Source: a virus. Taken from it: DNA of 54,140 nt. Each line of letters opens with the position of its first letter. Within the stretch, counting starts at the first letter, position 1. The notes under the pieces are model-generated. The model was not told the origin of the DNA. It saw only the letters and a program-made list of their open reading frames with translations, and made no database searches. Shown here one piece after another: positions 4,498 through 52,920 of the stretch. The translations under genes were made by a program, and so were the position numbers. The stretch lies in the IMG/VR virus record IMGVR_UViG_3300012920_000052, positions 1 through 54,140 of that record, one strand, 5' to 3'.

Positions 4498-4505
4498 TAT
4501 AAATA
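4498..4505 (-). promoter_or_regulatory. late-type promoter octamer before gp25
   Basis: Sense sequence TATTTATA, 11 nt upstream of the gp25 ATG. It belongs to a recurrent class of octamers in this window that precede virion genes. Confidence 0.6.
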
Positions 4506-4520
4506 CTTTAAACTTAAAAT

Positions 4521-4739
4521 CTATAGTGTAATTGTTAACACATTTGAATTATATAAGTGTGGTTTACAATTTAGTCCGTAGTTTTCCACCACTTCTTTTA
4601 CAACACCTTTAACAACTTTACTATCACCAGTTACAATTTCTAATTTTTTACTTCCAAATTGTATGTGGTCATATATAAAAGAATCCACAACATTTATAGC
4701 ATTATCTATCTTGTAACCGTGTAAGTCTAGTTTATACAT
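4521..4739 (-). CDS. stand-alone Smr-domain protein
   Basis: This 72-aa protein is essentially only a Smr (small MutS-related) domain: it opens with the LDLHGY motif at residues 4-9 and has the IVTGDSKVVKGVV loop (usual form TGxGxHS) at about 36-48. Smr domains are structure-specific DNA or RNA endonucleases or nucleic-acid binders. The second motif is degenerate (TGDSK in place of TGxGxHS), so activity is uncertain. It lies between NrdA and gp25 with its own octamer, so it may be expressed with late genes. Confidence 0.75.
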   Translation of the reverse strand: MYKLDLHGYKIDNAINVVDSFIYDHIQFGSKKLEIVTGDSKVVKGVVKEVVENYGLNCKPHLYNSNVLTITL

Positions 4740-4750
4740 TTTCTTTTAAA

Positions 4751-4758
4751 TATAAATA
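4751..4758 (-). promoter_or_regulatory. late-type promoter octamer before Smr gene
   Basis: Sense TATTTATA, 11 nt before the Smr ATG and immediately after the NrdA stop codon. It marks a likely switch between the nucleotide-metabolism genes and the late unit. Confidence 0.55.
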
Positions 4759-6531
4759 CTACCCTTCACAACTAACACACTCTTCCATGGCTTTGGCAGC
4801 GATATCTCCCCTTAATACACTTTCAGTTCTAACGTAATATAATGTTTTAACTCCCACCTTCCAAGCTTCTAAATGTACTTGGTTTAACCATTTTGGTGTT
4901 GCTTCTTTAGGGAATGCTAAATTAAGTGATACTGCTTGGTCAACGTATTGCTGTCTTATTCCCGCTTGTCTTACTAATTCTAATTGATTTACTTCTTTAA
5001 ATGTTTTAAAAACTTCTTTTACTGGTACAAAATCTATATGTGAATTTTCTTTTTCATCTAAATGTGTGATTTTACCATTGATATATCCCCAGTTATCCAA
5101 TTCTTTTATATCTTGAACACTACCACCGTCTGCTAATATTTTATCCCAAGTATCTTTATTATTAATACCTATTTTTCTAAATATTTTTTCTAACTCTTTA
5201 TTTTTTCTGATAAATGTACCTTTAGCACTTTGGTCTGTATATACATTTGCAGGTAAAGGTTCTATCCCTGAGCTTACACCACCAGCTAATTTACTATTGG
5301 ATACAGTCGGTGCAACAGCTCGTAAATGAGTGTTTCTAAATCCACTTCCTGCACACCAAAGTGGTTCACCATACTCTGTAGCTAAGTCTCTAGAAGCTTG
5401 TTCGGATTCAGTTTTAATTTGACCAAAAATTCTTCTTGTTTCAAATTGTGCTGGTAGACCTTCAAAAGGTATTCCTCTTTGTTGTAAATATGTATGCCAT
5501 CCTAGTACTCCTAAACCTAAAGCTCTTCCTTTTTCTGCACTTCTTACTGCATTTTCAAAACCTTTTCTATATTTAGCCTTTTGAATAAATTCTTCAAGAA
5601 CACCATCTAAAAACCAAGTAGCTGTATAGATTAAATCGGTATCTTTCCATTCATCATATCTTGCAAGATTAAGAGAACTTAAACAACAAACAAAAGAATG
5701 ATTTTCGTCAGTATGTAAAACAATTTCTGAACATATGTTAGTCATATACACTTTTAAACCATTTTTTTTATAAGATTCTGGATTAGTCTTATTAACATTA
5801 CCTCTATACATAATGTAAGGTTCACCAGTTTGTCTACGTTTCTTAATTAAAGATGCCCATTTTTGACGTGACTCCCTATCTCCAGCTTCCAATTTTCTCA
5901 TAAATTTATCACCTACTACCGCACACTGGTGTAAGTTTAGTGATTGTCTATTTACGTCACCTTTAGGTTCTCTGATTTCTAACCAATCCATAAAATCATT
6001 ATGTTCAATATTAAGATTAACTGAAGCCGCTCCTCTTCTAACCGCACCTTGATTGGTTGCCAAAATTGTAGAATCATATATTTTACAAAAAGGTACAACA
6101 CCATCACTAGTTCCATTATCCGTAATTGTTGAACCGGCCGGTCTGATTTGATTTATGCCAATTCCCACGCCACCACCGTGTTTAGCTAATAACATCATCT
6201 CTAAATTTTTTGCTCCAATGTCCTGGATTGAGTCAGCAACGTCAATTCCAAAACATGAAATAGGTAATCCTCTTTCGGTTCCAGTATTGCTTAATACTGG
6301 ACTTGCAAGGCATAACCAGCCTTTCCAAATATAATCAAAAAATTTAGTAGCTAATTGTGGTTTACCGAGTCTTTTTGCAACTGTAGTACATACCCTCCAG
6401 TATGCGTCTTTTGGTTTTTCTCCTGGTAGTAAATAACCATTAGATATAGTTTGTATATAAACGTGTGTATTTGCCCAACTTGGGAAGTCCACGTCTACTT
6501 CCCAGCCCAAATGTTCTGCGTAATTTTTCAT
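4759..6531 (-). CDS. nrdA: ribonucleotide reductase class I, large subunit
   Basis: The 590-aa catalytic alpha subunit reduces ribonucleotides for phage DNA synthesis. All core residues are visible: the redox Cys in PISCFGIDV, the radical-site motif N-x-C-x-E in TNICSEI, the second redox Cys in SFVCCLSSLN, the radical-transfer Tyr pair in KTLYYVRTE, and a C-terminal CVSCEG tail for reduction by thioredoxin or glutaredoxin. It is much shorter than E. coli NrdA (about 760 aa) or T4 NrdA (about 750 aa), and the barrel starts almost at the N-terminus, so the ATP-cone allosteric domain appears to be absent. NrdB lies 22 nt upstream in the same operon. Confidence 0.95.
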   Translation of the reverse strand: MKNYAEHLGWEVDVDFPSWANTHVYIQTISNGYLLPGEKPKDAYWRVCTTVAKRLGKPQLATKFFDYIWKGWLCLASPVLSNTGTERGLPISCFGIDVADSIQDIGAKNLEMMLLAKHGGGVGIGINQIRPAGSTITDNGTSDGVVPFCKIYDSTILATNQGAVRRGAASVNLNIEHNDFMDWLEIREPKGDVNRQSLNLHQCAVVGDKFMRKLEAGDRESRQKWASLIKKRRQTGEPYIMYRGNVNKTNPESYKKNGLKVYMTNICSEIVLHTDENHSFVCCLSSLNLARYDEWKDTDLIYTATWFLDGVLEEFIQKAKYRKGFENAVRSAEKGRALGLGVLGWHTYLQQRGIPFEGLPAQFETRRIFGQIKTESEQASRDLATEYGEPLWCAGSGFRNTHLRAVAPTVSNSKLAGGVSSGIEPLPANVYTDQSAKGTFIRKNKELEKIFRKIGINNKDTWDKILADGGSVQDIKELDNWGYINGKITHLDEKENSHIDFVPVKEVFKTFKEVNQLELVRQAGIRQQYVDQAVSLNLAFPKEATPKWLNQVHLEAWKVGVKTLYYVRTESVLRGDIAAKAMEECVSCEG

Positions 6532-6553
6532 CTTTCTAATTAAATTTTATTAT

Positions 6554-7575: not shown

Positions 7576-8958
7576 TTATTGTTGATTTATTTGTTGATTT
7601 CTTCTTGCGAGAGCGTTTCTAACTCTTTCCGCGTTTCTTTGTTCTCTTTCTTGTTCCAAACCTAGTAAAGTTTGTGATTGTTCAGTATCTATTTCTAATG
7701 TAGCGTTATTAAATTTACAATTTTCAAAAACAATACCGTCTTTACCTACCCTGGACTTGGTAATAGCTATAGTAGCTAATCCCATTTCTTTTTGTTGTAG
7801 AGTTTTAGCTACAGTAATAATAACGTGACCTACTTGTGCCTTTTTAATTGACCCACCCATCATATCTGTAGTTACTACTTCGGAACTAATAGATGTTCTA
7901 TTTCCTTGTGCGGCTGTCCAACCAGCAACATCTAACTCTGTACACATACTTTCAAATTGTCTCATAACTAATCCTTCTCCTTGCCAAACTTCACTAAAAT
8001 GTTTGTCTGGTAAAATACAATCTATATAGTCTACAACAATCATATCAAATTTATTTCCATCAGCAATTAATTTTCTAATTCTATTTTTTATAGCTGAAAT
8101 AGTAATTCTATCTGATGGTAATTTTTCCAAAATTAATTTACCTCTACCTTGTCTGTATGGTTTAATTTTTTCTAAAACTTCTTCTTTACGAGTAGATTGT
8201 TCTTGTGCTGGAATCTTTGACCAACAAGTTATATGTTTTCTTTGAATTACTTTTGGGTTGTCTTCAAAAAATATCTGTAATACGTTAAATCCCATGTTAT
8301 AAGCGGTATTAGCTATTTTTGTTAGTACGGTTGTTTTACCGACACCAGTTGGTGCGAGAAACACCCCTATTTCACCTTTAGCTAATCCCCCATCTAATAC
8401 ATTGTCTATACCATTTATACCTAAAGGTATTGGGTCTCTAAAGTCATCAACTAAAGCCTCGTCTAGTTCTTCAAAAACGTCCATAGAAGTGTCGTCACTT
8501 TGACCAACCTGAATTGCGTCTCGTATAAAACCTTCACATCTATCGTAGGATTCAAAGTCTCCTTTTTCTAAAATTTTACTAACTTTAGTTATAGCTTTTT
8601 TTAATTCTTGTTGTTTACAAAACTTTAAAGCTTTTTCTTGTACAAATAAATGGTCTTCTAGGGTACACTCTTTAATGTCACCTAACATATCAAATACTGT
8701 TTTTTTAGCCATTTCAGATGAGACTTCAAGGCGAGTAACTTGGTCCAACACATCAAATGTTGGTATTGTGTTGTACTTTTCAAAATATTCTTTCACCATT
8801 TGTGAAATTAATTTAAAATACTGATTATCGAAATACTTTGGGTCTATTACTTCTAGAATAGAATTAGCAAACTTTTTGTCAGTTATTAACTGATTTAAAA
8901 GTTTTATCTGAAATGTATGCCCTAGGTACCCGAAACTTTTGCTTTCCTTCATAGTCAT
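7576..8958 (-). CDS. 41: replicative DNA helicase, DnaB/gp41-like
   Basis: The 460-aa protein has an N-terminal helical DnaB-type domain (residues about 5-110) and a RecA-fold ATPase domain. Walker A is APTGVGKTT (about residues 205-213) and the Walker B region is MIVVDYIDCI (about 305). Later SSEVVTTDMMGGSIKKAQVG is the DnaB-family H3/H4 region. It should unwind DNA ahead of the phage polymerase. Two in-frame ATGs are possible, at 8958 and 8952. No primase gene is visible in this window. It is followed by nrdB and nrdA. Confidence 0.9.
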   Translation of the reverse strand: MTMKESKSFGYLGHTFQIKLLNQLITDKKFANSILEVIDPKYFDNQYFKLISQMVKEYFEKYNTIPTFDVLDQVTRLEVSSEMAKKTVFDMLGDIKECTLEDHLFVQEKALKFCKQQELKKAITKVSKILEKGDFESYDRCEGFIRDAIQVGQSDDTSMDVFEELDEALVDDFRDPIPLGINGIDNVLDGGLAKGEIGVFLAPTGVGKTTVLTKIANTAYNMGFNVLQIFFEDNPKVIQRKHITCWSKIPAQEQSTRKEEVLEKIKPYRQGRGKLILEKLPSDRITISAIKNRIRKLIADGNKFDMIVVDYIDCILPDKHFSEVWQGEGLVMRQFESMCTELDVAGWTAAQGNRTSISSEVVTTDMMGGSIKKAQVGHVIITVAKTLQQKEMGLATIAITKSRVGKDGIVFENCKFNNATLEIDTEQSQTLLGLEQEREQRNAERVRNALARRNQQINQQ

Positions 8959-8973: not shown

Positions 8974-8981
8974 TATAAATA
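8974..8981 (-). promoter_or_regulatory. TATTTATA octamer before helicase gene
   Basis: Sense TATTTATA, 15 nt before the helicase ATG at 8958 and inside the short gap after the upstream gene. It matches the late-type octamer, although this gene would be expected to be expressed earlier. Confidence 0.45.
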
Positions 8982-13655: not shown

Positions 13656-13862
13656 TTATCCCATTAATAAACTTCTTCCGTCCTCTGTGATAACTTTTTT
13701 ATTTACCCTTTCGATAAGTCCGTCTTTAGTTTTAATTGTTTTACACTCTCCAGTTTTTGTATCACAAACTTCTTCAAAACCCTCTTCTTCTATATTAAGA
13801 TTTCTATTATTTGTGTTTTTATTTCCTAAAAAGTTGTCTAAATTTTTTTCTATATTTTTCAT
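13656..13862 (-). CDS. small unknown protein
   Basis: A 68-aa charged protein with a CDTKTGECKTIKTKDG segment resembling a small Cys-paired beta hairpin. I do not recognise a family. It sits between the 2191-aa tail protein and the acidic coiled-coil gene and has a TATTTATA octamer 17 nt before the ATG, so it is probably a real late gene. Confidence 0.65.
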   Translation of the reverse strand: MKNIEKNLDNFLGNKNTNNRNLNIEEEGFEEVCDTKTGECKTIKTKDGLIERVNKKVITEDGRSLLMG

Positions 13863-13879: not shown

Positions 13880-13887
13880 TATAAATA
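13880..13887 (-). promoter_or_regulatory. late-type promoter octamer
   Basis: Sense TATTTATA, 17 nt before the ATG at 13862. It drives the 68-aa gene and the acidic coiled-coil gene up to the terminator at 12860-12888. Confidence 0.55.
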
Positions 13888-13924: not shown

Positions 13925-16900
13925 CTAAGCGTAATCATTCCCAACGGGCCCTGGGTCTCCCACGATATCGTCATTCGGTGGTGTAATTATTTGAGTGTTA
14001 CTAGAAGTGACGGGTGGATTTGATAACCCTGAAGCTAAATCATCAGTACTATAAGGACTAGGAACTACTTTAAATCCTTTATTTCGTAATACATTATTTA
14101 ATATAGCTTGATTCATATTAGAAATACCTTTTATATTACTGTTTTCTATTTCTTCAAAAATTTGAGCTAGTTTTTTTCTTAAGTTATTACCTAAAGTACC
14201 ACTTAAAGCTTCTTGACTTCTAAAACATGGGCATCTTTTATTTGAAAAGTCGTTATGTCCTTTAACAACTTGTTTCCACATACTAACAGTAACACCTTTT
14301 TCTTTGTTATTAGTAACCTTAGGGTCGTTCACCGTCACATCAATTGGGTTTATTCTTAATCTCATATTCTCATGAGCGGGTATGTCGTCATAATTTTGTT
14401 GTGAAAATGTTAGGTTTGGTTCTAATTCAAATATTTGGGTACCAAATAATAAATAAAGTACTGTCCATTCTAATGTATTTTTTTGTGCTGTAGTTGCGTA
14501 CGTTCCACTACTATCATAAGAACCAATTTTTTGACAATCTGCAATCATAGAAACAGATATAGACTCTTGATTATGTCCTTGGACATGTGCACCGTCTTTA
14601 TTTTCAGGTCTAGCTCCATATAGAGTACCATCTGGTTCATTGTCTCCACCGGCAGCTCCTCTAGAAATTAAATAATGATACCCTATTCCTGCCCAACCTC
14701 TATTTAAATGTTGTGAATTTATATTACCGACAGGGTCTGAACCATAATTTATTCCACCAGTAACATGGATAACCACATATTTTCTAGTTTTACTTCTACC
14801 TGGAAAATATATTTTATTATTTTTCACATTTTCATATTCAGCTCTACCTTCTACGTTAAACCCACCTTCTTCAGCTACCTTTACTTCAGTTTCTTGTTTT
14901 TTCTTTACTCTACTTATTAATTTTTTATTAAGTTTAGCGACTACGTTTTGGATATCTGGTAATTTATGGAATGGGACTCTAACTCCAGTAAAAGTTGTTG
15001 TCATTGTATTTGGTTGTATCGTATGTTCAACATCCAAAATTAAATAAGGTCCATTAAACATAGGTACATTTCTTAATGTAAAGTACATTGTAGGTTGTAT
15101 ACATACGTTACCTAAAGAGGTTACTTTACAGGTATATGAACGTGATTTATATATATTAAAAAGACTTAAACCTTGAGTCATAATACTATTATCATTAGCA
15201 GATTGTGCCATCATTTCTGTAACAACAAAAGATTCACTAGTATTTTTAAATTGACTTTGGTCTAAACTTATACCTTTAAACATTCCCTGAGATTGAATTG
15301 CAAAATCTACTGCAAAAGACATAACTTTATTACATCTGGCTGGGTCATTACAATTACTAAATAATGGATTTTCAGAAGTCCTACCCAACATAAATGAGTC
15401 ATTATTAAATCTTGATTGGGGTCCTAGGTCGGACAATTGGGTTGATGGTGGTCCTACATATTGACAAACAAACTTTGGGGAAGAGTCTAGGAAATCAACT
15501 TCTAAATGGGTACCGAATAGTGCATTAGCTTCATCTTGTGTACTAAATTTAGGAATAGGTGTGTTAGTATTAGAAGCTATACCATAAAAATTAATATAAC
15601 TAGGCATTCCATAAAAATTAAAATAATTACCTTGTAATAAAGTACCTATAATAGTTAATAGGGAAGCGTTCGCATTTTGAGGGTTAGTAAAGTTTTTAAT
15701 TGCGTCTGTATCTAATATAGCTAAATCTCCAATATCTCTATTTGCAACGTCTAAAAATAAAAAATCTTTAAATATAAACTTTGAACCAAAATCTTCTCCA
15801 GATATCCATTTATCGTTTAGTGTTTTAAAAACCATGTACTGTTCCAATTTGTTTTCATCCGATTGATAAGCAGACTGATTTTGAAATTCTTCTACTTCAC
15901 CAGAAACAGTAGTGGGTAAATCTTTTTTTAATCTTAGAAAAAGTTGCGTTAGGTACTCACTTTTTAAATTACTATAATTGTCGATAATTTGATTAAATAT
16001 TTTACCTTTAAATTCTGTTACGTCAACTGGTTGGTTGGGTCCTGAAACAATCCTTTCAGTTACATACATTCTTATAACTTTACGTAATAATTTTATGTTA
16101 GAAGAGGTGAAAGCTATATTATTTTCTATGAAGAAATCAGTAACATAATTACCCAAATCTCCATATATTAAATCTGTTGTTTGGCCAGACAAGACTGGTG
16201 AATAAAACCCTACCTCCAATTGTAGTGTTTTCCATTCGTCTGGAAAACTCGTTTGGGAATCTAGAAGGGTAAGATTAGGTGGTAGGTTTCCACTATAGTT
16301 ACCAAAATCATAATAATCAGCACCGTCCAATTGTAAAAATGATTTGAATGATTTAATGTTAACATCTTTAGGGTTATAAAAATTAAAGGACAGTTGTCCA
16401 CCCAAAAAGTTTTTCATTATCTGACTTATATTATTAAGTTGTGCCGTATATAAATCATAATTTAAATACTTTACATTAGACATCATACTTTCATCTAATT
16501 GTGATTTTTTTACTTTCATCATTTCTCTGAATAGACTCTGAAAAGTAGTTTCTACATTTCCTAATATAGTTGAAGTTGTAGCTGTTGTGTTATATATGTC
16601 GTCTTGGGTGTCTTTTTTAGTAAAGTCCAAAAAGTATCTTTCAAACACATCTAAAATATCTGGAGTGAAAACATCAAATAACTCCTCTATACTAGCATAG
16701 TTACTAGAATCTGTTATTGTGAAAACTGTTTGTTCGTCTATATTTGGGTCTATAACCTTTAGATACTGATTTGGGTTAGGTAGTGTGTTTGTGTTGTGTT
16801 CAAAAAATCCATATCCCGCAGCTCCCCACATAAATCTAGTAGACCCGTTTGGTCCAATAGGATTATTAATTAAATTATTGATGTTTTGTTCTTCAAATTC

Positions 16901-19900
16901 TAATTGTTGGTATTCTAATCCTCCACAAGATGGAAACAGTAGGTATTCGGTTTCTGTATATCCCGAACTAAAAGAACTTCTGTTTATATCTAAATAGGAA
17001 TACCAGAAATTACAAGTAGTTTCACCTGAAGGGGAAGAAAAAGATAAACTTTCTAATTGGTTTATAAATAAATCTTTATTATCTATTTTAAGGTTTATCT
17101 CACTAGAAGATATGTCGGCACCTGTTATATTTAAACTATTATATAATAGTTCCTCACCAGTAATAAAATAATAAATATAATTATTTAATTCTGGGTAGAA
17201 CCCTAAATTAATTGTGTTTTGATTTTGTCCATTATTGTATTGTGCAGCAAAATCAATAGGCACTATAGTAGTACCTGAGGTTGTTGCACTTATTCCAATA
17301 TTTAAATTATAAATGTGATTTGTACCATTAGAATTATTAAAATACTCAGCAGAATCAAAATTTTCCCAAACGGATGATAAAAAATCTGTACCGTTCTCTA
17401 TGTTTTCTTTATAACGATGCCATATACTTCCATATTTTAATATCCACGCATATGGTAAACTATGGACCGCAGAAACCTGGTTTAATATTTTACCTAAATA
17501 GTCCCCATAAACGTTAACATAATCTTGTTCTACTTTTAAACTTTTCTCTCTAAGGGTAGGGAGTGGCAACGAATTTAAAAATAAATAAGCTGCTGCTTTA
17601 TAAACATGTTCATCACCAATATTATTAGTGTCTAAGGTTATTTGATTTTTTATTCCTTGTACAAAAGCGTTTGTAAAATAAGGTGTGTTTAATAGTGAAG
17701 TTATTTGTTTATTGTAAGTATTACCACTGTAGTTATCACCATAGTTAATTTCACCTTCGGTTAATAAAAAGTTACTATTTTTAGGGTAGGTATTTGTTAT
17801 ATTTTCAAAATATGTTTTCCAACTAAGCGCTTGATTTTGTAGATTACCTTCTCTCAATAATTTAACGTTAATCAGTTGTGTAAGTGTTCTATAAGACCAG
17901 TTACCATCAGTATAAAATTGTATGTTAGGTATGATTCCTGATAACGTTTGGTTAGGTATGTCTGAAGAATACGTTTGTTGATTTGGTAGATACACTACTC
18001 CGTCAGCAATATGGTTTAAATTTTCATATGACGCGATACTTTGTCCCCCAGCTAAGTTATTAGAAACCCAACTATTGTTAGGATTACCATCAAAATGTGA
18101 AAAAGGATAAGTCTCTATTATATTAGGGATAGCAGGTTGTATTAGAGCTTCTTTTAAAAATCCAACAGAATCATCCACATTAATTTCGTTTAACTGATAA
18201 TTTAAACCGTTAAATTTAACTTTGCTCATTATAGCAAACCTATTATCGTTAATTTTAGTTCTGATATATTCTGTACTGTATTCATCCCTAACTAAAAGTT
18301 GATAATTATTTAATGGAGATATGGCTTGTAAAAATTCTCGAAATGAGGTTGCTGTGTAGTTTTGGTTTTTAAGTTGTTCACTTAGTGAAAAATCACCAAC
18401 TAAAATATCGGTAAGGTTAGCTGATTCTAAATTACCAAAAGATTTATATGTTGTTCTTGCATTTTTAAATTCTAATCTAGTAGCTAACCCAGAAAAGTTA
18501 GTAAAAATAGTACTTCTATCCCACATTTCATATAAAAATGGAACTTTACTTTTATTAGTATATACTGTTTGTTCATCTATGAAAAAAGAAGTTACTGGTA
18601 ACCAGGGTTCTCCCACATTGTCTGTAAAAAAATCAGGTTTACTGTCTCCTTTAATTAAAGCTTGTCCCTTAAAAAATTCTTCAACAAATGAAACCTCTGG
18701 CCATAAAAGTGCATCAAAAGCTTTGGTTTGGGAAAGAGCTCCTATAGCTCCTGGATAAGTACTAACATATGAAGTTGCCCCATTTTCTTCTTTTGTGATG
18801 AAGTAATGTGGCCAAGGATATATAAAATTATCTTCTGGTAATTCTGTATTGGTGCTGGCTTGACCTGGTCCTTTGACCGCGTTTAACCTACGTGGGTCAT
18901 TTCTTACACTAAAAGAATCACGATGTGTTTCATCCATTAAACGTAAAAAAGTGTCGGCGTGTGCTATTAAAATTGCGAATATATTTCTAACACTAGGTTT
19001 AAAACCTAAAATATCAATTACCAATCCATTTACAATATCAGTTAAATTTTTTTCAATAATGTTTCTTTTAGTGTCAAAAGAAGATATTATTTTACCTATT
19101 TTTTCTTCAAACAAATTTGGTCCACCAGAAAAAACAAACCATTTATCTGTATTTTTAGGGTCTACTTTACCTTCGTTTATTAATGAAAGAGGTAATGCTG
19201 GTGATATATTAATATCTTGTACTGTTATATTTACTGGAATTTTTTTAGGTCCAATACTACCAAATGTAGTATTTTGATTTAGTTGTTTATTAAAGTTAGT
19301 AATTATATCTTCTAATCTTTTAACAGCGTCTTTTTCTTTTTGACCTCCGTCTCTATATGTCTCTTTTAATCTGTAATATGTGATTCCTTTAGAGTCCGTT
19401 ACTGGACCTTGTGGTGACGTTATATCTGTATTACAATAAGTTGCTCTCCACCCACCATTAGCCAAAATAGATTTACGGTATCGGTCACTAACTCTATCAT
19501 ATTCTTCTATGTGGTCTAATTGTTGTAAATTGTATGAACTTAAAGCTTTTTGTAATTCGTCCTCTAAGTTGGTTACTTTGGATACCAATTCATCTATTGT
19601 TATGTCTGGTAATGAAGGAGTAACCAGACCTAATGATTTATAGTTTTCGTAAACATTTGTTAAGGTTTCTCTTCCTTTACTTGTTATAAATTTTTGTTCT
19701 TTATTATTATTTTGACGGTCACTTACCGTATACTGTCTAGTAAACATATAAGGAGCTATCCTTAATTCTTGTAATGTTAAATCAGCTAATAAAGCTACTA
19801 CCCTCCCTTTGAATGAACAGGTTACTGTATAATTTCCACTACTCCCATCAAAAGAAGCGTTAAATTTTTCCATCATTAGTTGATACTGAACTGCCTTTCC

Positions 19901-26143: not shown

Positions 26144-26151
26144 AATAAATA
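26144..26151 (-). promoter_or_regulatory. late-type promoter octamer
   Basis: Sense TATTTATT, 14 nt before the ATG of the 1719-aa tail protein gene. One mismatch to TATTTATA. Confidence 0.5.
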
Positions 26152-28287: not shown

Positions 28288-28295
28288 TATAAATA
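28288..28295 (-). promoter_or_regulatory. late-type promoter octamer before tape measure
   Basis: Sense TATTTATA followed by GATAAAAGA, 17 nt before the tape measure ATG. The same octamer plus GATAAAA extension precedes the genes at 41643 and 51609. Confidence 0.6.
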
Positions 28296-30487: not shown

Positions 30488-30495
30488 AATAAATA
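30488..30495 (-). promoter_or_regulatory. late-type promoter octamer for tail tube
   Basis: Sense TATTTATT, 33 nt before the tail tube ATG. The long leader is shared with sheath (40 nt) and one HAD gene (38 nt). Confidence 0.55.
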
Positions 30496-31307: not shown

Positions 31308-31315
31308 TATAAATA
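31308..31315 (-). promoter_or_regulatory. late-type promoter octamer before HAD gene
   Basis: Sense TATTTATA, 38 nt before the ATG at 31269. Confidence 0.45.
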
Positions 31316-32475: not shown

Positions 32476-32506
32476 CAAATATAATAAAAAATATTTAGTA
32501 AACAAA
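32476..32506 (-). promoter_or_regulatory. Bacteroidota-type promoter for HAD gene
   Basis: Minus strand: TTTG (32506-32503), 19 bp spacer, TATATTTG (32483-32476). This is a full match to -33 TTTG and -7 TAnnTTTG. It lies about 24 nt before the ATG and is divergent to the promoter at 32527-32558. Confidence 0.8.
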
Positions 32507-32526: not shown

Positions 32527-32558
32527 TTTGGTAGTTTCATATAAAGCTCTTATATTTG
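32527..32558 (+). promoter_or_regulatory. Bacteroidota-type promoter for coiled-coil gene
   Basis: Plus strand: TTTG (32527-32530), 20 bp spacer, TATATTTG (32551-32558). A full match to the Bacteroidota consensus. It decides the start of the next gene, because an upstream non-ATG start at 32556 would lie inside the -7 element. Confidence 0.8.
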
Positions 32559-37922: not shown

Positions 37923-37930
37923 AATAAATA
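37923..37930 (-). promoter_or_regulatory. late-type promoter octamer for sheath
   Basis: Sense TATTTATT, 40 nt before the sheath ATG. Confidence 0.55.
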
Positions 37931-39277: not shown

Positions 39278-39793
39278 TTAAATTCCGTTAAATTCGTTTT
39301 CACTAACTGGTGTACATGTTATTGTCCTATAAAATGACTTGTACCCCAGTATGGTATGTGCATTATCTCCCGCTACCCTACCATCATTGGCTACTGTAAA
39401 GTATCTAGTAAAATCTTCAGTCTCTGGGTAACCTATATAATCACCATATTTTATATCTATTCCCAACTGTTCCAGTTCTTTTTTATAAACACTAATGGTT
39501 AAATTACCACTTTCTAAATAACGCATCAAACCGTTGGCGTAACTATCGTTAGTTGGTCCTGATATATTAACTAAAGCTTTGAATTCTACAGGTGGGAAAA
39601 ACCTAATCTCTTCTGGTGCTGCTTCAGAATACACATTATCTACTTTGGATTTACTCCTATCTACACTATATAAAACAAGTGTAAAATTTAAATTACCATG
39701 AAGATATTCCATCCCCATAGATTCCTGTAAACGAAAATCTTCATCAGCAAAAAACTTATTTACTCTAGTTATCGGTACTCTTTTTTTAGACAT
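39278..39793 (-). CDS. 14: neck protein, gp14-like
   Basis: The 171-aa protein lies upstream of the gp15-like gene. It has a segment IKYGDYIGYPETEDFTRYF that resembles the gp14 pattern of KEGDLIYFP-type strands, and a LESGNLTISVYKKELEQLGI helix-strand. In T4, gp13 and gp14 close the head portal and connect the tail. The family match is weak by eye; the call rests mainly on order (neck, completion, sheath, tube). A TATTTATA octamer is 17 nt before the ATG. Confidence 0.55.
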   Translation of the reverse strand: MSKKRVPITRVNKFFADEDFRLQESMGMEYLHGNLNFTLVLYSVDRSKSKVDNVYSEAAPEEIRFFPPVEFKALVNISGPTNDSYANGLMRYLESGNLTISVYKKELEQLGIDIKYGDYIGYPETEDFTRYFTVANDGRVAGDNAHTILGYKSFYRTITCTPVSENEFNGI

Positions 39794-39806: not shown

Positions 39807-39818
39807 TATTTATAAATA
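39807..39818. promoter_or_regulatory. palindromic, possibly bidirectional late-type octamer
   Basis: TATTTATAAATA holds the octamer on both strands: plus 39807-39814 and minus 39811-39818. It lies 17 nt before the gp14-like ATG on the minus strand and about 45 nt before the plus-strand SNF2 gene start. Confidence 0.5.
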
Positions 39819-39859: not shown

Positions 39860-41605
39860 TTGGAAATAAGAATACCGGAAAAAGAAGCTTTAGATATTCT
39901 CTCTACCTATGGTGGAGCAAATAATTACGTCTTAGAATTAAAAGAAAAGACAAAAAGTAAATATTATAAACTTAGTAGAACCCAAGTAGATTATATCATA
40001 TCTCACAAAGACATTGTACCTAAGGTAGCTCGTAAATTTGTTGAAATCGACCCCTATCTTTCTGAACAATTACAAGAAAATCGTTTATTACCTAAACCCC
40101 CTAAAAAAATATGGGTAGAAAAAATTCTAGTAGAAAGTGAAAAGGCTTATCATATATGGGGTAAAATTATAGACGCGGATAATTTACACGCGTTCTGGGT
40201 ACCTAAGTCACAGATAGTACCCAAACAACAACAAAAAGATTTAAAAATAGACTATAGTCCTTTTTCCCATAGACCACCAATGGAACACCAACGACCAGCA
40301 ATAGAAGCTTTATTAAAAAATGACATGTATATTCTTGCTGATGATATGGGTCTGGGTAAAACCACGTCTGCCGTACTAGCTAGTATAATTGAAAATAGTA
40401 AACGAACATTAGTTGTCTGTCCCGCGTCATTAAAAATAAATTGGAAAAGAGAGATAGAAAATTACACTAATGAAGAGGTAGTAATAGTTGAAGGTAAAAA
40501 GTGGAAAGAAGGTAAATTTATTATAATTAATTACGACATACTTAAAAATTTTCATTCTTTTAAAGACGATAGTGTAAGAATTTTATTAGACTCTGGAATA
40601 GAAAGAATAATAATAGATGAAGCTCATTATATTTCTAATCCTAAAGCACAAAGAACTAAAATAATTAATCAAATATCTAATAAGTTAGGTAAGGTTTGGT
40701 TACTTACTGGGACACCTATGACATCTAGACCTATTAATTACTACAATTTATTAAAACTAGTAAATAGTAGGGTGGCTAGTAACTGGATTACTTATGTCAG
40801 TAGATATTGTGAAGGTAGACAATTTAGAGGCCCTAATGGTAGAAAAATATGGAATGTTAACGGAGCTTCTAATTTAGAAGAACTTAGAGATAGAACACAA
40901 GATAAGATTACACGAAGATTAAAAGAAGATGTATTGGACCTGCCAGATAAAATTATAACTCCCATATACTTAGAACTAATGTCTGCAGAATATGAAAAAG
41001 AAATGGGAGAGTATTTGTCTTGGTCTGACGAAAACCAAAATGAAAGCATTACAATACATTTAGCTAAACTTACAAAAGTTAGACAAATTATAGCTTCAGG
41101 TAAAATTACACACACAATACAATTAATTAATGATATTTTAGAACAAGACAAAAAAGTTATTGTTTTTACTAACTTTACTGCTCCTTTAATGGAACTCCAT
41201 TCACATTATCCTAAAAACTCTGTCGTACTTCATGGGCAAATGTCTAAAGAAGAAAGACAAAAATCTGTAGACAAATTTCAAAACAACCCAAAAATAAAAA
41301 TATTCATATCTAATTTAAAAGCGGGTGGTGTAGGAATTACTTTGACAGCAGCTGAAGCAGTCATTATGAATGATTTAAGTTTTGTTCCATCAGACCACTC
41401 CCAAGCTGAAGATAGAGCTTTCAGAATAGGACAAAAAAAGAACGTGTCTTGTTTTTACCCCATATTTGATAACACTCTTGAAAGAATAATTTATAATATA
41501 TTACAAAAAAAGAAAAATGTAATTGATACTGTTATGGGTGATATTACCATAGAACCAGATACAGATATTATGCAAGAATTATTTAATGAGTTACATAATA
41601 TTTGA
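39860..41605 (+). CDS. SNF2-family DNA helicase/translocase
   Basis: The 581-aa protein has all SNF2 motifs in order: I DDMGLGKTTSAV (about residues 160-171), II IIIDEAHYIS, III WLLTGTPM, and the C-terminal domain with SNLKAGGVGITLTAA and QAEDRAFRIGQKK. It may serve as the branch-migration/annealing helicase that UvsW provides in T4, but this is SNF2/HARP-like rather than UvsW-like. No ATG is in frame near the N-terminus. TTG at 39860 is the best start and ATT at 39857 a possible one; the ATG at 39852 is out of frame. Confidence 0.9.
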   Translation: MEIRIPEKEALDILSTYGGANNYVLELKEKTKSKYYKLSRTQVDYIISHKDIVPKVARKFVEIDPYLSEQLQENRLLPKPPKKIWVEKILVESEKAYHIWGKIIDADNLHAFWVPKSQIVPKQQQKDLKIDYSPFSHRPPMEHQRPAIEALLKNDMYILADDMGLGKTTSAVLASIIENSKRTLVVCPASLKINWKREIENYTNEEVVIVEGKKWKEGKFIIINYDILKNFHSFKDDSVRILLDSGIERIIIDEAHYISNPKAQRTKIINQISNKLGKVWLLTGTPMTSRPINYYNLLKLVNSRVASNWITYVSRYCEGRQFRGPNGRKIWNVNGASNLEELRDRTQDKITRRLKEDVLDLPDKIITPIYLELMSAEYEKEMGEYLSWSDENQNESITIHLAKLTKVRQIIASGKITHTIQLINDILEQDKKVIVFTNFTAPLMELHSHYPKNSVVLHGQMSKEERQKSVDKFQNNPKIKIFISNLKAGGVGITLTAAEAVIMNDLSFVPSDHSQAEDRAFRIGQKKNVSCFYPIFDNTLERIIYNILQKKKNVIDTVMGDITIEPDTDIMQELFNELHNI

Positions 41606-41623: not shown

Positions 41624-41631
41624 TATTTATA
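41624..41631 (+). promoter_or_regulatory. late-type promoter octamer before neck gene
   Basis: TATTTATA followed by GATAAAAGA, 11 nt before the ATG at 41643. Confidence 0.6.
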
Positions 41632-41642: not shown

Positions 41643-42764
41643 ATGCCAAGTAACGTTAGTATTTTAGACAAACAGAGACTCTACACTCAACTTAGACACC
41701 AACTAGGTGCACCAATAGTGGGAGTGGAGTTAGAAGACGATATGTTAGACTCTTTATTGGAGATAGCGATACAAGATTATGCTATGTATGTGAATGACTG
41801 GTTAATTGAAAATCAATGGGCATCTTTAGACGGAATTAATGTAGATGAAGCAGACTTAGCTAGAGCATATACTACCAGGAGTTTGGATTGGGAAAGTTCT
41901 TTTACATACGCCTATTCTAAAATTGTAGGTCTTCAAACAATGGGCCCGTGGATTCTTAAAAAAGACTATGTAGAGTTAGTTAAAGACCAACAAATATATC
42001 AAATTCCAGCAGGACGAGAAATAAATGAAATAATGTGGTATAGTCGTCCCGAACTTAATGAAATGTTAGTCGACCCTTTCTTGGGTGGTTTTGGAGGATT
42101 CGGAGGTATCGGTATGGGTGGAGCTGGCGGTTTTGCTCAAATGGGAATTGTGGGTTCTTACTATATGATGCCCGCTTACGACATCCTATTAAGAATGCAA
42201 GATAGGAATATTAAAAATAGACTTATAGGTTCAGATTTAACTTATCGTGTTACCGCGGGACCAGAAGGTACTAGATATTTACATTTATATAATGTACCTG
42301 GCGGTAGGTTTGATTTTGGAAATTCTGAAATAAATGGAGCCAGAGTCTGGTACTGGTATTATGATGTTAATCCGGACAACGTAAACGATTGTTTAGCAGA
42401 AAATAAAGATATTATTAGAGTACCATCTGATGCACCCATAAATGATATAGAGTGGATTGATTTAAACTCACCAGCCAGAGCGTGGGTAAGAAGGTATTTT
42501 ACAGCTTTAGCGAAAGAAACTTTAGGGAGAGTAAGGGGTAAATTTAGTGGAGCCTTAAAAGTACCAGATAGTGAGTTAACAATGGACTATTCTTCTTTAT
42601 TTAGTGAATCACAAGATGAAAAAACTAAACTTACCGAAGAACTTATGGGTAGGTTAGAAAGATTAAGAGAAGATAAATTAATGGAAAGAAAAGCTCTTGT
42701 AGCTGAAAATCTTAATAAAGCTTTAGGGTACAGACCATTTCAAGACCCTTATAATGTAATTTAA
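41643..42764 (+). CDS. 13: neck protein, gp13-like
   Basis: The 373-aa protein begins with KQRLYTQLRHQLGAPIVGVE followed by LEDDMLDSLLEIAIQDYAMY, the typical T4 gp13 N-terminal helical region. A Gly-rich loop (FGGFGGIGMGGAGG) lies at about residues 148-162. The rest contains the INEIMWYSRPE and RYLHLYNVPGG strands seen in gp13-like proteins. It should complete the neck between portal and tail. It is followed 1 nt later by the S74 fibre gene, echoing the wac-13 neighbourhood in T4. Confidence 0.75.
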   Translation: MPSNVSILDKQRLYTQLRHQLGAPIVGVELEDDMLDSLLEIAIQDYAMYVNDWLIENQWASLDGINVDEADLARAYTTRSLDWESSFTYAYSKIVGLQTMGPWILKKDYVELVKDQQIYQIPAGREINEIMWYSRPELNEMLVDPFLGGFGGFGGIGMGGAGGFAQMGIVGSYYMMPAYDILLRMQDRNIKNRLIGSDLTYRVTAGPEGTRYLHLYNVPGGRFDFGNSEINGARVWYWYYDVNPDNVNDCLAENKDIIRVPSDAPINDIEWIDLNSPARAWVRRYFTALAKETLGRVRGKFSGALKVPDSELTMDYSSLFSESQDEKTKLTEELMGRLERLREDKLMERKALVAENLNKALGYRPFQDPYNVI

Positions 42765-46439: not shown

Positions 46440-46814
46440 TTAAATAATCCCGAAACTTTCTTGAATATTGATAAATAAGTCTTCTCTAACTGGAGCAACT
46501 AACTGTGTCCCAGTACTTAAAAATTCTATTAAGAATTGTCCTTGATATCTACCTACTTCCATAACATCTGATGGTTGCCATCTGTAAAATATATAATACT
46601 CTGGTTCATTAGTGGGGTCCACTTCAGTTTTTTGTACTATACCTGCCGCTTTATTAAGAATAACATACTCACCAGTATCTACTTTTTTCATAGAAAAACT
46701 TAACATAGCATTTTCTAAATCTTTGTAAAACTTTCTAAAATCATTTCTACCATCTTGTATTAACTGCATTTTTAATACTGGTTCTAATGAGTCTTTTCTT
46801 ATAAAAAATTCCAT
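46440..46814 (-). CDS. putative baseplate/fibre adaptor, BppU-like
   Basis: The 124-aa protein has the pattern of the N-terminal domain of upper baseplate proteins: SFSMKKVDTGEYVILNKAAG, then YIFYRWQPSDVMEVGRYQGQ, then FLIEF and a final EDLFINIQESF strand. Such domains attach fibres to the virion. It lies directly downstream of a large fibre gene and has a TATTTATA octamer 14 nt upstream. Confidence 0.6.
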   Translation of the reverse strand: MEFFIRKDSLEPVLKMQLIQDGRNDFRKFYKDLENAMLSFSMKKVDTGEYVILNKAAGIVQKTEVDPTNEPEYYIFYRWQPSDVMEVGRYQGQFLIEFLSTGTQLVAPVREDLFINIQESFGII

Positions 46815-46828: not shown

Positions 46829-46836
46829 TATAAATA
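46829..46836 (-). promoter_or_regulatory. late-type promoter octamer
   Basis: Sense TATTTATA, 14 nt before the ATG of the BppU-like gene. Confidence 0.55.
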
Positions 46837-46842: not shown

Positions 46843-48738
46843 TTATTGTTTTACCATTAATATTCCCGCCACATTTAAAGGAGCAACTCCCGTTCCAGTT
46901 GTTTGATATAGGTCTCCAGTTGATAACCCCCCAAGTGTAGCATTTGCTTCGTCCTGAAAAGCAGGGATATTTCTAAGATTCATTGTACTTGCGGTAAATG
47001 AACCATCCATTCTAGTGTCTCCCGAAACATGTAATTTATAATTAGTGTCAGGATTAGGTGTTCCCACACCCAGTACACTAATATTATCAAAATAAGATTT
47101 AGTTTCAGCTGCACCGTTTTCAATAACAAATCTTTCTACATCATTTGCACCACCACTCGTACTGTCCTTAGAACTAAATCTAAACCCACAAGTGTCAGTC
47201 ACAGCTGCTGCATCATTAATGTTTAACATAAAATCCATACCATAAGAACGTGCAGTAGATATTGTGGTTCTGGTTCCCGACTTAGAACCAAAAGCATTAC
47301 TTTGTCTATCATTTAAAATCCAACCAAAACTAGAAGCGTTGTAAAATCTCCATTGTGAATTAGTATTTTCATTTACTCTAAATAATAAAAAATCTCTAGT
47401 ACCGTCATTATCACCACCTATACCAATTCCTGTAGATGTAAATGCTAACGAACCTCTGTCATTTGGGGTTTTTCCCGCACCAATAAGTAGTGTTGGGTTT
47501 GTGGGCAAAGCACTATTAACTAAATCACCTAGGTGAACTTTTCCTGTGTCGGAACAATCTAGGATATGATTACCGACACTATCTTTTACTAAAAATACCA
47601 TATCTGAAGTATTCGAACCAGAACTAGTAATCGTTAAACCACTAGTCACATTAAGTTCACCTGAAACTTTTGCTCCACCGTATGTGACTCTAAAACTTTC
47701 TTCTATAGATGCTCCGTCGTATATTTGAAATGCAAGTTCATTTGCATTACCTGATGTACCATCAAAATCAATACTTGCTCCAATGACACCACCACTACCT
47801 TTAAAACGTACTGTTGGGACATTTGCGTTGTCCGTTCTTTGAAGTGTTAGATGAGGAGTTGCACCTTCTATGCGTGCTTCATCAACTATGTCAACACCAT
47901 CTGTTGTAGTTTCCAACTTTTTAATATTGTTGTGATAAAGTTCAACTGCTCCATCGGCAATACCCTTTACCATAGGTTCTGTACTACTATCCTTAGAAAG
48001 TATAACATTATTATCACTTTGTAGGTATAAGTTTCCAGTTCCTGTTTCTCTTATTATTGAGTGGGCTCCGTTGTGAAATATTTTTAGGTCATCATTACTA
48101 CCAAATCCAGCATAGTTATTACTAACATCACCATCCCCTAATAGTATTTTTCCACCAAAAGACGTATTCCCATCTTGATTTAATGATAATATTTTATTGA
48201 ATGTAGTTAAATCTTGTGAACCACCTGTAGTACCATGTTTTTTTACATAAAACTCTAAACCACCATGACCACCACTAGGCATTTTAACAACTGTCATACC
48301 AGCATTAATATCACCCGCATAGGTTGGGGTATATGTGTTGGTTGCGACACCCCCATCATGGTTAGCATTAAACGTTAATTGTCCTGTATTAGCAAAACCA
48401 GTACTAATCTCTGTATAATAACCGTTACTAAAAGTTGAAGTCTCACCAGTTTGGCTTATATTACCAGTCACTGCCATATCAGTTCCTATAGTTACTGGAC
48501 TACATCCAAAAATATTAGACACCCATAACTCATTAATACAGGTAGCTGAAGTATTTCCTGTAAAAGTTCCTCCGCCCCCTGTTGAACCTGATGAGGTGGT
48601 AGTGGAAAAAATATCTAATAAATTTGTACCTCCACTTAATATATTACCCACACAATCCACATTTTGAAGAAATGTGGTATTTAATGGAATGGTCCCTCCT
48701 TGAAAGTTTTCTATGATATTTTTACATTTACACGACAT
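46843..48738 (-). CDS. tail fibre protein
   Basis: The 631-aa protein is a repetitive beta-rich fibre. It has a Cys-bearing N-terminus (MSCKCKNIIENF), Gly/Ser/Thr linkers, and fibre modules such as DLKIFHNGAHSIIRETGTGN and SLNQDGNTSFGGKI, typical of marine phage fibres that carry glycan- or surface-binding beta structures. The C-terminus (ATLGGLSTGDLYQTTGTGVA) resembles fibre trimerisation tips. It probably binds the host surface. A late octamer is 12 nt upstream. Confidence 0.75.
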   Translation of the reverse strand: MSCKCKNIIENFQGGTIPLNTTFLQNVDCVGNILSGGTNLLDIFSTTTSSGSTGGGGTFTGNTSATCINELWVSNIFGCSPVTIGTDMAVTGNISQTGETSTFSNGYYTEISTGFANTGQLTFNANHDGGVATNTYTPTYAGDINAGMTVVKMPSGGHGGLEFYVKKHGTTGGSQDLTTFNKILSLNQDGNTSFGGKILLGDGDVSNNYAGFGSNDDLKIFHNGAHSIIRETGTGNLYLQSDNNVILSKDSSTEPMVKGIADGAVELYHNNIKKLETTTDGVDIVDEARIEGATPHLTLQRTDNANVPTVRFKGSGGVIGASIDFDGTSGNANELAFQIYDGASIEESFRVTYGGAKVSGELNVTSGLTITSSGSNTSDMVFLVKDSVGNHILDCSDTGKVHLGDLVNSALPTNPTLLIGAGKTPNDRGSLAFTSTGIGIGGDNDGTRDFLLFRVNENTNSQWRFYNASSFGWILNDRQSNAFGSKSGTRTTISTARSYGMDFMLNINDAAAVTDTCGFRFSSKDSTSGGANDVERFVIENGAAETKSYFDNISVLGVGTPNPDTNYKLHVSGDTRMDGSFTASTMNLRNIPAFQDEANATLGGLSTGDLYQTTGTGVAPLNVAGILMVKQ

Positions 48739-48750: not shown

Positions 48751-48758
48751 TATAAATA
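48751..48758 (-). promoter_or_regulatory. late-type promoter octamer before fibre
   Basis: Sense TATTTATA, 12 nt before the fibre ATG, followed by AAATAAAAAAT as at 52913. Confidence 0.55.
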
Positions 48759-51569: not shown

Positions 51570-51586
51570 TTTAACGAATGCATTAA

Positions 51587-51594
51587 TATTTATA
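51587..51594 (+). promoter_or_regulatory. late-type promoter octamer
   Basis: TATTTATA followed by GATAAAAAG, 14 nt before the ATG at 51609. Confidence 0.6.
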
Positions 51595-51608
51595 GATAAA
51601 AAGAAAGT

Positions 51609-52271
51609 ATGGATAGATTAGAACATAAAGGTAAAAGTTGTGAAGAAATGCATCCCGGTGAAGAACATGAAATGTGGGAAAACAGTCAATTAGAGGGTAA
51701 AACAGAAGAAGAATTGTCTGAATTAGTTGATTTTGACGGCTCAATGCTTAATTCAAAAATTCCTTTAGGTATTAATAAAACTAATAAGGTTAGTAGGAGT
51801 ACAAGTGATGATATGGTTAAAACCGCACATCAAAAAGGTAACGGATTTGGTTATTATTATAAAAGGTATTGGGGTGAGGCCTACCAAGGAGCCGCTTTAG
51901 GGGATAATGAAGAAATAGATTTAATGACTGGTCAAGAGACTTTGGATTATTTTGAGGATGAACATGGTTTAAGTCCACATAAGGCTGTTGAAAAAGCAAG
52001 TGGTGAATACGGTAAAAGGGTAAAGGGGTCTGAAGACGCTTTACACGGAACTAAACAAAGAATAGTGGAATTGTCCAATAAGAAAATGAGGGATATGATA
52101 GAAATGTTGGTGACTAAGCCAGATAATGATAAAATGAATATAGATTCTAAAGAAATGGAACTACATGACATGCAAAAATCTAATCCTATTTTGGACAAAA
52201 TGGCTTCTAGATTTAAAAGAGCTTGTGACGCTCAAGGTGTTTCACCCCAACAAGTATTAAATAATATATAA
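51609..52271 (+). CDS. unknown hydrophilic late protein
   Basis: The 220-aa protein is charged and mostly helical, with MHPGEEHEMWENSQLEGK near the N-terminus and a YGYYYKRYW-like aromatic segment near residue 80. It has no signal peptide, membrane helix or enzyme motif. A late octamer precedes it and four small genes follow on the same strand, which suggests a head or internal-protein cluster. A SGEYGKRV stretch echoes GGDYGKKV in the next protein, so the two may be related. Confidence 0.7.
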   Translation: MDRLEHKGKSCEEMHPGEEHEMWENSQLEGKTEEELSELVDFDGSMLNSKIPLGINKTNKVSRSTSDDMVKTAHQKGNGFGYYYKRYWGEAYQGAALGDNEEIDLMTGQETLDYFEDEHGLSPHKAVEKASGEYGKRVKGSEDALHGTKQRIVELSNKKMRDMIEMLVTKPDNDKMNIDSKEMELHDMQKSNPILDKMASRFKRACDAQGVSPQQVLNNI

Positions 52272-52272
52272 A

Positions 52273-52722
52273 ATGCCCGATAAACACTTAAAAGGACATC
52301 AAATTAAAGTACCACAGAAATGTGTTAAACATATTGCAAGTGCGGTGCAAGATTTTAATGGTCCTAAAAATACTGAAGGTTATGAAAGGGCTATTAATAT
52401 TATTAAAAGTCCTGTTATTAGTATGGAGTTATTAAAAAAGATTAATAACTTTTTTAGAAATGAGGAAAAAGGTACTCCATCATATAACTTAACTGGAGGT
52501 GATTACGGAAAAAAAGTGTTTTATGAGTTGGAGAAGCAACTTAGGGATACCGCTTCGACAGGAAGAAAAACTAAAATGGATGGTGGTATGATGAATACCC
52601 ATTATGATGAACATGAAAAAGATGGTAACGCGAACCCAACACAAGTTAGTGTACCTAAAGTAGATAAAGCAAATACTTTAAGAGAATCTATAAATAAAAT
52701 AAATCGACTTATAAATTATTAA
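52273..52722 (+). CDS. unknown small late protein
   Basis: The 149-aa protein starts 1 nt after the previous stop and is probably translationally linked to it. It has a helical N-terminal part with GGDYGKKVFYELEKQLRD near residues 76-93, a polar linker, and a C-terminal amphipathic helix (NTLRESINKINRLINY) with an L-R-E triplet. No family is recognised. Confidence 0.7.
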   Translation: MPDKHLKGHQIKVPQKCVKHIASAVQDFNGPKNTEGYERAINIIKSPVISMELLKKINNFFRNEEKGTPSYNLTGGDYGKKVFYELEKQLRDTASTGRKTKMDGGMMNTHYDEHEKDGNANPTQVSVPKVDKANTLRESINKINRLINY

Positions 52723-52724
52723 AA

Positions 52725-52895
52725 ATGAAAATTAATTGGATTAACTCATGGAAAAGTGGGAACAAAAAAAACAAATATAGTTTAACTTTAAGATTAGGAA
52801 AATTAACTGTTTTTGAATTTAAGGTTTGTCCTTGTTCCACAGAAAATTGTTCTAAATTTAGATTTATGATATTAAATCTTGGTTTTGAACTATAA
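52725..52895 (+). CDS. tiny unknown Cys-containing protein
   Basis: A 56-aa frame starts with ATG 2 nt after the previous stop: MKINWINSWKSGNKK, with a CPCSTENC segment at about residues 35-42, and ends FMILNLGFEL. The overlap-free spacing, coding-like composition and position before a late octamer support a real gene. A small zinc- or disulfide-bound fold is possible; no family is recognised. Confidence 0.55.
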   Translation: MKINWINSWKSGNKKNKYSLTLRLGKLTVFEFKVCPCSTENCSKFRFMILNLGFEL

Positions 52896-52912
52896 AATAA
52901 ACTTAAATAAAA

Positions 52913-52920
52913 TATTTATA
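52913..52920 (+). promoter_or_regulatory. late-type promoter octamer
   Basis: TATTTATA followed by AAATAAAAAAT, 12 nt before the ATG at 52933. Confidence 0.6.

Follow-up and report, generated by a model that had tools for sequence, protein, structure and literature searches.

In textbooks, T4 late transcription exemplifies the coupling of a phage sigma factor to replication through the sliding clamp. A review of the subject, in the sections available, regards gp55 together with the clamp as probably general for T4-related phages and describes T4 late promoters as lacking conservation at −35 (PMC2988020). Here, we analyze a 54,140-nt fragment of such a phage (IMG/VR virus record IMGVR_UViG_3300012920_000052, positions 1–54,140; hereafter the window), in which a sense-strand octamer, TATTTATW, recurs shortly before genes on both strands. 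Compared with the T4 late promoter and its gp55/gp33/gp45 apparatus, as portrayed in the accessible parts of two reports (PMC2988020, PMC7892883), the element is alike in being an eight-base AT box, in what would be a −10-like position, followed by AT-rich DNA, in showing no −35 conservation, in standing on both strands and before many virion genes, and in the accompanying putative gp55-like sigma, found here in relatives. It differs from T4 in reading TATTTATA and not TATAAATA, in a gp45 family that went undetected, in a sigma that carries an extra C-terminal domain of ~90 residues, and in sites that imply leaderless mRNA. The late promoter of the cyanophage P-SSM7 likewise stands before the virion genes of a T4-related phage, and differs in reading ATAAATA, with no TATTTAT. 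The Bacteroidota sigma-A promoter (−33 TTTG/−7 TAnnTTTG), as far as the excerpted description goes (PMC6847099), resembles the octamer in having an AT-rich −7 element 4–5 nt before the start and in not needing a Shine–Dalgarno (SD) sequence, whereas the octamer has neither a −33 box nor the TTTG ending and does not conform to a sigma-A promoter. According to a survey of T4-related jumbo phages (PMC7824862), every group 2 phage that it covers has phage sigma factors, some of these being in Bacteroidetes phages; the portions of it at hand name no TATTTATA box and tie no sigma to a promoter sequence. We consider it probable that, in a clade of T4-related phages, TATTTATA forms the −10/−7 element of late-type promoters that have no −33 box, and that its likeliest reader is a divergent gp55-like sigma. 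To our knowledge, a late box of the TATTTATA type has not been reported before, and no earlier description of one in a phage was found in the open-access literature that we searched.

The window is 67% A+T and ~88% coding. Enrichment of the octamer was assessed on 36 genes chosen by us from the list of open reading frames (ORFs), omitting long ORFs with a listed GTG or TTG start and small overlapping ORFs. TATTTATW lay within 45 nt upstream of 14 of these genes, whereas 2000 dinucleotide shuffles gave 1.4 genes on average and never more than 6; an earlier note on this DNA had proposed a comparison with a shuffled background, and the octamer emerged from the present one above chance. By contrast, the T4 late consensus TATAAATA preceded 3/36 genes in sense, which is the chance level (shuffle mean 1.0, maximum 5). 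Over both strands, the window holds 37 octamers, 16 of which are located within 60 nt upstream of a start on the same strand; 22 are mostly intergenic and 15 mostly coding. With our own gene caller, TATTTATA preceded 13 of 42 window genes and its reverse complement five (p 0.10), whereas the same caller in five relatives gave 144 against 46 among 1149 upstream regions (p 6e-13); since the window alone yields only p 0.10, the orientation of the octamer rests on the relatives. In these 1149 distinct 40-nt regions, TATTTAT was the top 7-mer by z-score, with 233 occurrences observed and 17.8 expected, and 99 for its reverse complement.

Conservation was followed in orthologue upstream regions collected by tblastn (first 250 residues, E 1e-8) from loci L004–L112 and records G002–G005 and G007, after exclusion of six loci lying in those same records, of matches beginning past residue 25 and of cases with no ATG within eight codons of the aligned start; identical upstream regions were collapsed to one. 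TATTTAT was present in 147/173 regions belonging to the 16 genes with the element and in 10/177 belonging to the 20 genes without it (Fisher p 3e-57, with contigs treated as independent), and the difference persisted among orthologues below 75% protein identity (70/89 against 7/118). Judged from these comparisons, the octamer is a real and conserved promoter-like element, strand-specific and different from both the host box and the late box of T4 and cyanophages. Its identity as the core of a late-type promoter appears well supported at the sequence level, the timing in infection being presumptive.

The anatomy of the element was examined in sites pooled from the window and its relatives. An A is favored directly before the motif (0.72–0.74) and after it (0.57–0.69), T is somewhat favored 13–17 nt upstream, and a run of A occupies positions 11–14 from the motif start (0.78, 0.88, 0.87 and 0.65) in 130 sites located 12–20 nt from the ATG. 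When ATG triplets following 377 TATTTATA sites of five relatives were counted independently of gene calls, they peaked at offsets 3–5 (12, 25 and 9) and 12–17 (22, 21, 13, 15, 15 and 18), whereas the reverse complement exhibited no such peaks at the same offsets (6, 5 and 2; 4, 8, 12, 8, 1 and 5). According to the available sections of PMC6847099, the start site in many promoters of Flavobacterium johnsoniae follows the −7 element (−12 to −5) at a distance of 4 or 5 nt. By that spacing, an octamer 3–5 nt before ATG places the start codon where transcription should begin, so that the respective mRNAs should be leaderless; some host-type promoters in these phages likewise have their ATG 4 nt after TAnnTTTG. 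We infer that transcription starts near the octamer, and the A-rich DNA that follows it likely marks the start. RNA polymerase would initiate ~4–6 nt downstream of the octamer, within the A-rich stretch, which would leave a leader of ~6–13 nt at most sites followed by an AUG without SD sequence; alternatively, it would start on the AUG itself and yield a leaderless mRNA. The factor directing it would be a phage-encoded, very divergent gp55-like sigma acting on the host core enzyme.

Beyond the window, the box recurs in cultured and uncultured relatives. Megablast of window positions 20–44 kb against 50,697 phage records gave zero matches, and the sheath protein gave weak matches in 2579 records, the best rows including the Microcystis phage Mel-JY01, the uncultured 484-kb phage LR756508 and Flavobacterium phages, immuto among them. 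Close relatives are frequent in viral contigs, with 75 loci recovered through the baseplate wedge protein and 34 through the sheath. In the isolate immuto, TATTTAT stands before 22/83 plus-strand genes from position 79,212 onward, the baseplate and virion part as delimited by us from the annotation, and before 11/149 elsewhere (Fisher p 1.3e-4). In the first 50 kb of Mel-JY01, whose recorded host is a cyanobacterium and in which 38% of called genes have an SD-like sequence, TATTTATA precedes 7/47 annotated genes and TATAAATA none of the 47; because five of the seven sites lie 33–42 nt from the start, the octamer is not tied to the start codon. Around the sigma gene described below, in 80 loci, TATTTATA precedes 73 and its reverse complement TATAAATA eight of 750 distinct upstream regions. 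The phages with described late promoters read otherwise, in line with the distinction that the earlier note had drawn: in T4 (74–115 kb), TATAAATA stands in sense before 8/31 genes and TATTTATA before 3/31 at gaps of 11–13 nt, two of these three being the divergent pair 53/4, in which the box of one gene is the reverse complement of the other's, and in P-SSM7 (85–130 kb), ATAAATA precedes 8/53 genes and TATTTAT 0/53.

Rhodothermus phage RM378 carries a related element, TATTTAAA, which has the sense-strand TATTTA core in common with the octamer and ends in AA instead of TA. In its first 50 kb (L264), TATTTAA precedes 13/62 genes, an enrichment of ~19-fold, with six copies exactly 6 nt before the start codon, and by our own gene caller TATTTAAA occurs before eight and its reverse complement before three of 66 genes. 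It is possible that this element is a sister late box. In the Polaribacter phage P12002L (L273), ATAAATA was found before 12/70 called genes and TATTTAT before one.

The earlier note had also suggested a gp55-like sigma and a search for its gene. No sigma gene was recognised in the window, which is a fragment; a candidate for a divergent gp55-like sigma is encoded in fuller relatives, the gene being located outside this fragment. PHROG 234 (late sigma) gave weak matches in 6 of 11 records, immuto included. Starting from one of the matching proteins, 503 of 512 candidate stretches in viral contigs encoded relatives of it, out of which 80 loci were kept and 30 proteins were aligned into a profile (A1); as called, the proteins measure 188–259 amino acids (aa), some starts being placed too short. 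Profile A1 matches records G003 and G009, immuto (9e-19), Mel-JY01 (1.9e-15) and LR756508 (1.6e-18), and gave no match in G006, G007, G010, RM378, T4 or P-SSM7. By PHROG 234 and profile A1 together, the sigma is present in seven of ten larger IMG/VR relatives, in addition to immuto, Mel-JY01 and LR756508. PHROG 12791, a second late-sigma family, was matched in 0/11 records, a search lacking a positive control and hence uninformative, and a PDB sequence search with the sigma profile returned six matches with no sigma factor among them (best E 0.044). In immuto, the candidate gene (immuto35A_152; L173, 28,130 onward) lies ~3.8 kb before the annotated baseplate genes, and in relatives L179 and L180 the frame preceding the sigma resembles a glycosyltransferase by eye. 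The sigma frame of LR756508 (100303–100974) contains a single in-frame TAG, suggesting that TAG is a sense codon in this phage.

An AlphaFold2 model of the sigma reached a mean predicted local distance difference test (pLDDT) score of 73 and a predicted template modeling score of 0.42. It matches sigma region 2 structures, including that of T4 gp55 in its open complex (7d7c; model residues 10–136, Z 8.4, 113 aligned residues, root-mean-square deviation 4.9, 17% identity), with sigma-E as the best structural row (Z 9.1), and among the 50 Foldseek rows shown most are sigma factors (best E 0.011). The ~90 C-terminal residues fold confidently on their own (pLDDT 87), and the fold search with this domain gave no clear match, the best reaching Z 5.5; region 4 of SigA and SigR scored Z 4.4 and 4.3, values that unrelated proteins attained as well. 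The short hydrophobic–acidic C-terminal tail that binds the clamp was not apparent by eye in the sigma alignments, in which the folded C-terminal domain takes its place; P-SSM7 gp55 likewise has no tail alignable to that of T4. The gp45 clamp family PHROG 223 was detected in T4 and P-SSM7 and in none of ten records of the group nor in RM378, several of these records being fragments in which a divergent clamp could be missed, and the bacterial beta clamp PF00712 was found in 0/7 group records.

Our best inference, drawn from this co-occurrence, is that the gp55-like sigma reads the octamer. Several observations weigh against it. The link between sigma and octamer is one of co-occurrence, and it is not uniform: the sigma was not found in G006, G007 and G010, of which G007 nevertheless carries the octamer; RM378 has its related element yet no sigma detectable with profile A1; and LR756508 has the sigma, yet TATTTAT precedes 0/58 of its called genes under the standard code and 0/61 with TAG as sense, in one 50-kb stretch with uncertain starts. 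The kinship with gp55 is itself distant, as profile A1 misses the gp55 of T4 and P-SSM7 and hhalign of the sigma profile against a two-sequence gp55 alignment was modest (probability 66, E 6e-5, 70 columns). PHROG 234 was matched by 6/6 members at E 0.0011–0.5, none reaching E 0.001, and in three of them it was outranked by families of unknown function; Pfam Sigma70_r2 was matched by 4/6 (E 1.7e-4, 2.7e-4, 0.048 and 0.087), all below the curated cut-off, and by neither of the other two, and the best Pfam match of one member was the unrelated Dna2 (E 0.0091). A Z of 8.4 can be reached by helical models without kinship, according to the tool's own note. Furthermore, the orthologues and contigs behind the conservation analysis are related, so that counts and p values are not independent, and some octamer sites are weakly conserved or stand before non-virion genes. 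With TAG as sense, LR756508 shows TATTTAT, TATTTATA, TATAAATA and ATAAATA each before 0/61 genes, TATTTAA before 5/61 and ATATTTAA before 4/61, the last 13-fold over background. LR756508 and RM378 may be variants of the same scheme, or the box and the sigma may not be strictly tied.

Reading of the octamer by a sigma of the host, whether the primary one or another, possibly assisted by a phage activator, is unlikely in our assessment, and it is best judged beside the host-type promoters (TTTG...TAnnTTTG) that form a separate class, with a −33 box, in the same phages. In the window, two of them stand back to back, one on the minus strand (32476–32505; −33 TTG 32503–32505, −7 TATATTTG 32476–32483) before a polynucleotide-kinase-like gene (32012–32452), and one on the plus strand (32528–32558; −33 TTG 32528–32530, −7 TATATTTG 32551–32558) before an ORF starting with ATG at 32586. 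A phage sigma is no necessity, since the T4-like Microcystis phage Ma-LMM01 has no gp55 and, in the consulted part of its description, host-sigma-like sequences before its late genes (PMC5780444). The octamer also keeps the same register to the start as TAnnTTTG (cf. the available sections of PMC6847099), and its TATTTA core also occurs in host-type −7 elements such as TATATTTAG, found before small immuto genes (66.8–76.9 kb), where 16/22 upstream regions share GTTG followed by TATATTTAG or TATCTTTAG. These promoters are presumably early, and because they read TATATTTAG or TATCTTTAG, TAnnTTTG itself shows no enrichment over its reverse complement in immuto. Within this part of the genome (L173, 17,500–26,300; immuto 67.5–76.3 kb), the GTTG...TAT(A/C)TTTAG arrangement runs into a near-constant AT-rich stretch (16/22 upstream regions). 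Against a host sigma stands the absence of a −33 box from the late-type octamer sites: TTG lies 18–21 nt upstream of 10/155 of them (12 at the control offset), whereas it does so in 60/88 TAHHTTTG sites (control 9); in F. johnsoniae itself the −33 motif is weak, as stated in the accessible text of PMC6847099. Moreover, four Bacteroidota phages that do not belong to the T4 group (FCL-2 and P12002L almost in full, and parts of phi18:3 and crAss001) hardly use the octamer, TATTTATA preceding 2/265 called genes, whereas Mel-JY01, with its cyanobacterial recorded host, has both octamer and sigma. The sigma profile gave no match in FCL-2, P12002L, phi18:3 and crAss001, a search without a positive of its own, the profile having matched five records elsewhere.

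An AU-rich translation signal in the mRNA, with no promoter function, is a much less probable account. It would suit an octamer mostly 11–17 nt before ATG in a phage with an SD-like sequence before none of 42 window genes called by our own caller, and in F. johnsoniae translation benefits from adenines located upstream of the start codon (PMC6847099, in the part available). Nonetheless, 20 of the 36 genes lack the octamer and also need translation, and they lie closer to their neighbor (median gap 12.5 nt, against 68 nt for the 16 genes with the element; p 0.0016, counting only the 36 chosen genes, so that omitted ORFs inflate some gaps). The distance to the start varies besides (3–5, 11–17 and 33–40 nt, and 33–42 nt in Mel-JY01), and at offsets 3–5 the octamer is almost adjacent to the start codon. 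It is scarcely credible that the sites are T4-type TATAAATA late promoters that fire from the other strand, in the direction leading away from the gene. TATTTATA is indeed the exact reverse complement of TATAAATA, as the earlier note conveyed by saying that the sense strand reads the other way round, and two sites are palindromes, one of them between divergent genes. A flipped T4 promoter is not implied, since the octamer sits where a −7/−10 element would be expected if transcription began at the ATG or shortly before it; the downstream ATG offsets peak in the TATTTATA orientation only, the A-run follows the octamer on the gene side (the only side on which it was sought), and (T)ATAAATA is the form that stands in sense in T4 and P-SSM7. 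Chance in a genome of 67% A+T, in which 15/37 octamers fall mostly in coding sequence, has next to no probability, being refuted by the shuffle, orientation and orthologue tests. These last three readings were set aside on the shuffles, the ATG offsets, the T4 and P-SSM7 orientation and the neighbor gaps.

Returning to the octamer as a late-type promoter element, the individual sites in the window are as follows, with conservation given as TATTTAT kept among the orthologue upstream regions compared. All 16 positions listed in the earlier note proved to be TATTTATW on the strand of the following gene, at gaps of 11–17 nt from the ATG except for the tube, polynucleotide-kinase-like (HAD in that note) and sheath genes. 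On the minus strand, TATTTATT at 2115–2122 lies 16 nt before an ORF without assigned family (2–2098, 699 aa, cut by the window end; kept 19/20). TATTTATA at 4498–4505 lies 11 nt before a baseplate wedge gene (4028–4486; 22/22), which we take to be gp25-like, and forms part of the palindrome TATTTATAAATA (4494–4505). Further minus-strand copies of TATTTATA lie at 4751–4758, 11 nt before a 72-aa ORF (4521–4739; weakly kept, 1/10), at 8974–8981, 15 nt before the DnaB-like helicase gene (7576–8958; 12/16), and at 13880–13887, 17 nt before a 68-aa ORF (13656–13862; 5/5). Nearby, the protein encoded at positions 13925–20500 is 2191 aa long and has an amidase/endolysin domain around residues 1885–2017.

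Still on the minus strand, TATTTATT at 26144–26151 lies 14 nt before a 1719-aa ORF without family (20970–26129; 6/7), and TATTTATA followed by GATAAAA at 28288–28295 lies 17 nt before ORF 26168–28270 (5/5). The tail tube gene (29966–30454; 16/16) has TATTTATT at 30488–30495, 33 nt upstream, and an additional TATTTATA farther off, at 30581 (126 nt upstream); among these minus-strand tail genes lies a plus-strand gene (29305–29934) for Mom-like DNA modification. TATTTATA at 31308–31315 stands 38 nt before the polynucleotide-kinase-like gene (30601–31269; 9/14), and TATTTATT at 37923–37930 stands 40 nt before the tail sheath gene (34430–37882; 16/16), whose product is 1150 aa long, yet its best PHROG matches span only about the last 290 residues. 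TATTTATA at 39811–39818, 17 nt before ORF 39278–39793 (13/13), lies in the second copy of the palindrome (39807–39818), which like the first also contains TATAAATA in sense; read on the plus strand (39807–39814), it faces the divergent helicase ORF 39860–41605 (listed start TTG). On the minus strand, TATTTATA at 46829–46836 precedes ORF 46440–46814 by 14 nt (weakly kept, 4/9), and that at 48751–48758 precedes ORF 46843–48738 by 12 nt (1/2). Plus-strand copies of TATTTATA are located at 41624–41631, 11 nt before the head–tail adaptor Ad2 (gp13-like) gene (41643–42764; 12/12), at 51587–51594, 14 nt before ORF 51609–52271 (3/3), and at 52913–52920, 12 nt before ORF 52933–53256 (3/3). The first two of these are followed by GATAAAA, as is the site at 28288, and these three constitute the extended form TATTTATAGATAAAA, the common extension that the earlier note had pointed out. 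Its description of the octamer as preceding virion genes fits the tube, sheath, baseplate wedge and adaptor genes and is too narrow for the helicase at 8974, the polynucleotide-kinase-like gene at 31308 and several genes without family.

In addition to these structural genes of a T4-related contractile-tail phage (sheath, tube, baseplate wedge subunits and head–tail adaptor), the window encodes a UvsX-like recombinase, an ssDNA-binding protein, the DnaB-like helicase, both ribonucleotide reductase subunits and several large proteins without an assigned family. The lack of SD-like sequences before its 42 called genes, together with the −33/−7 host-type promoters, points to a member of the Bacteroidota as the host, and the octamer-using clade of T4-related phages probably infects mainly this phylum.

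Altogether, in a group that is common in viral contigs and akin to a cultured Flavobacterium phage, the box appears to be a different one and the sigma divergent, and no gp45 was detected. We advance only tentatively, as a doubtful possibility, that late transcription in this clade proceeds without a gp45-type clamp, a two-domain late sigma reading TATTTATA directly and giving rise to leaderless or near-leaderless late mRNAs, in which case the C-terminal domain may replace gp33 or sigma region 4. Judging by the spacing of the octamer, leaderless mRNAs seem to be common in these phages. If the proposed promoter holds true, the octamer would provide a late-gene predictor for many unannotated contigs, and the clade would represent a natural swap of sigma specificity and allow one to ask whether coupling to replication can be dispensed with.

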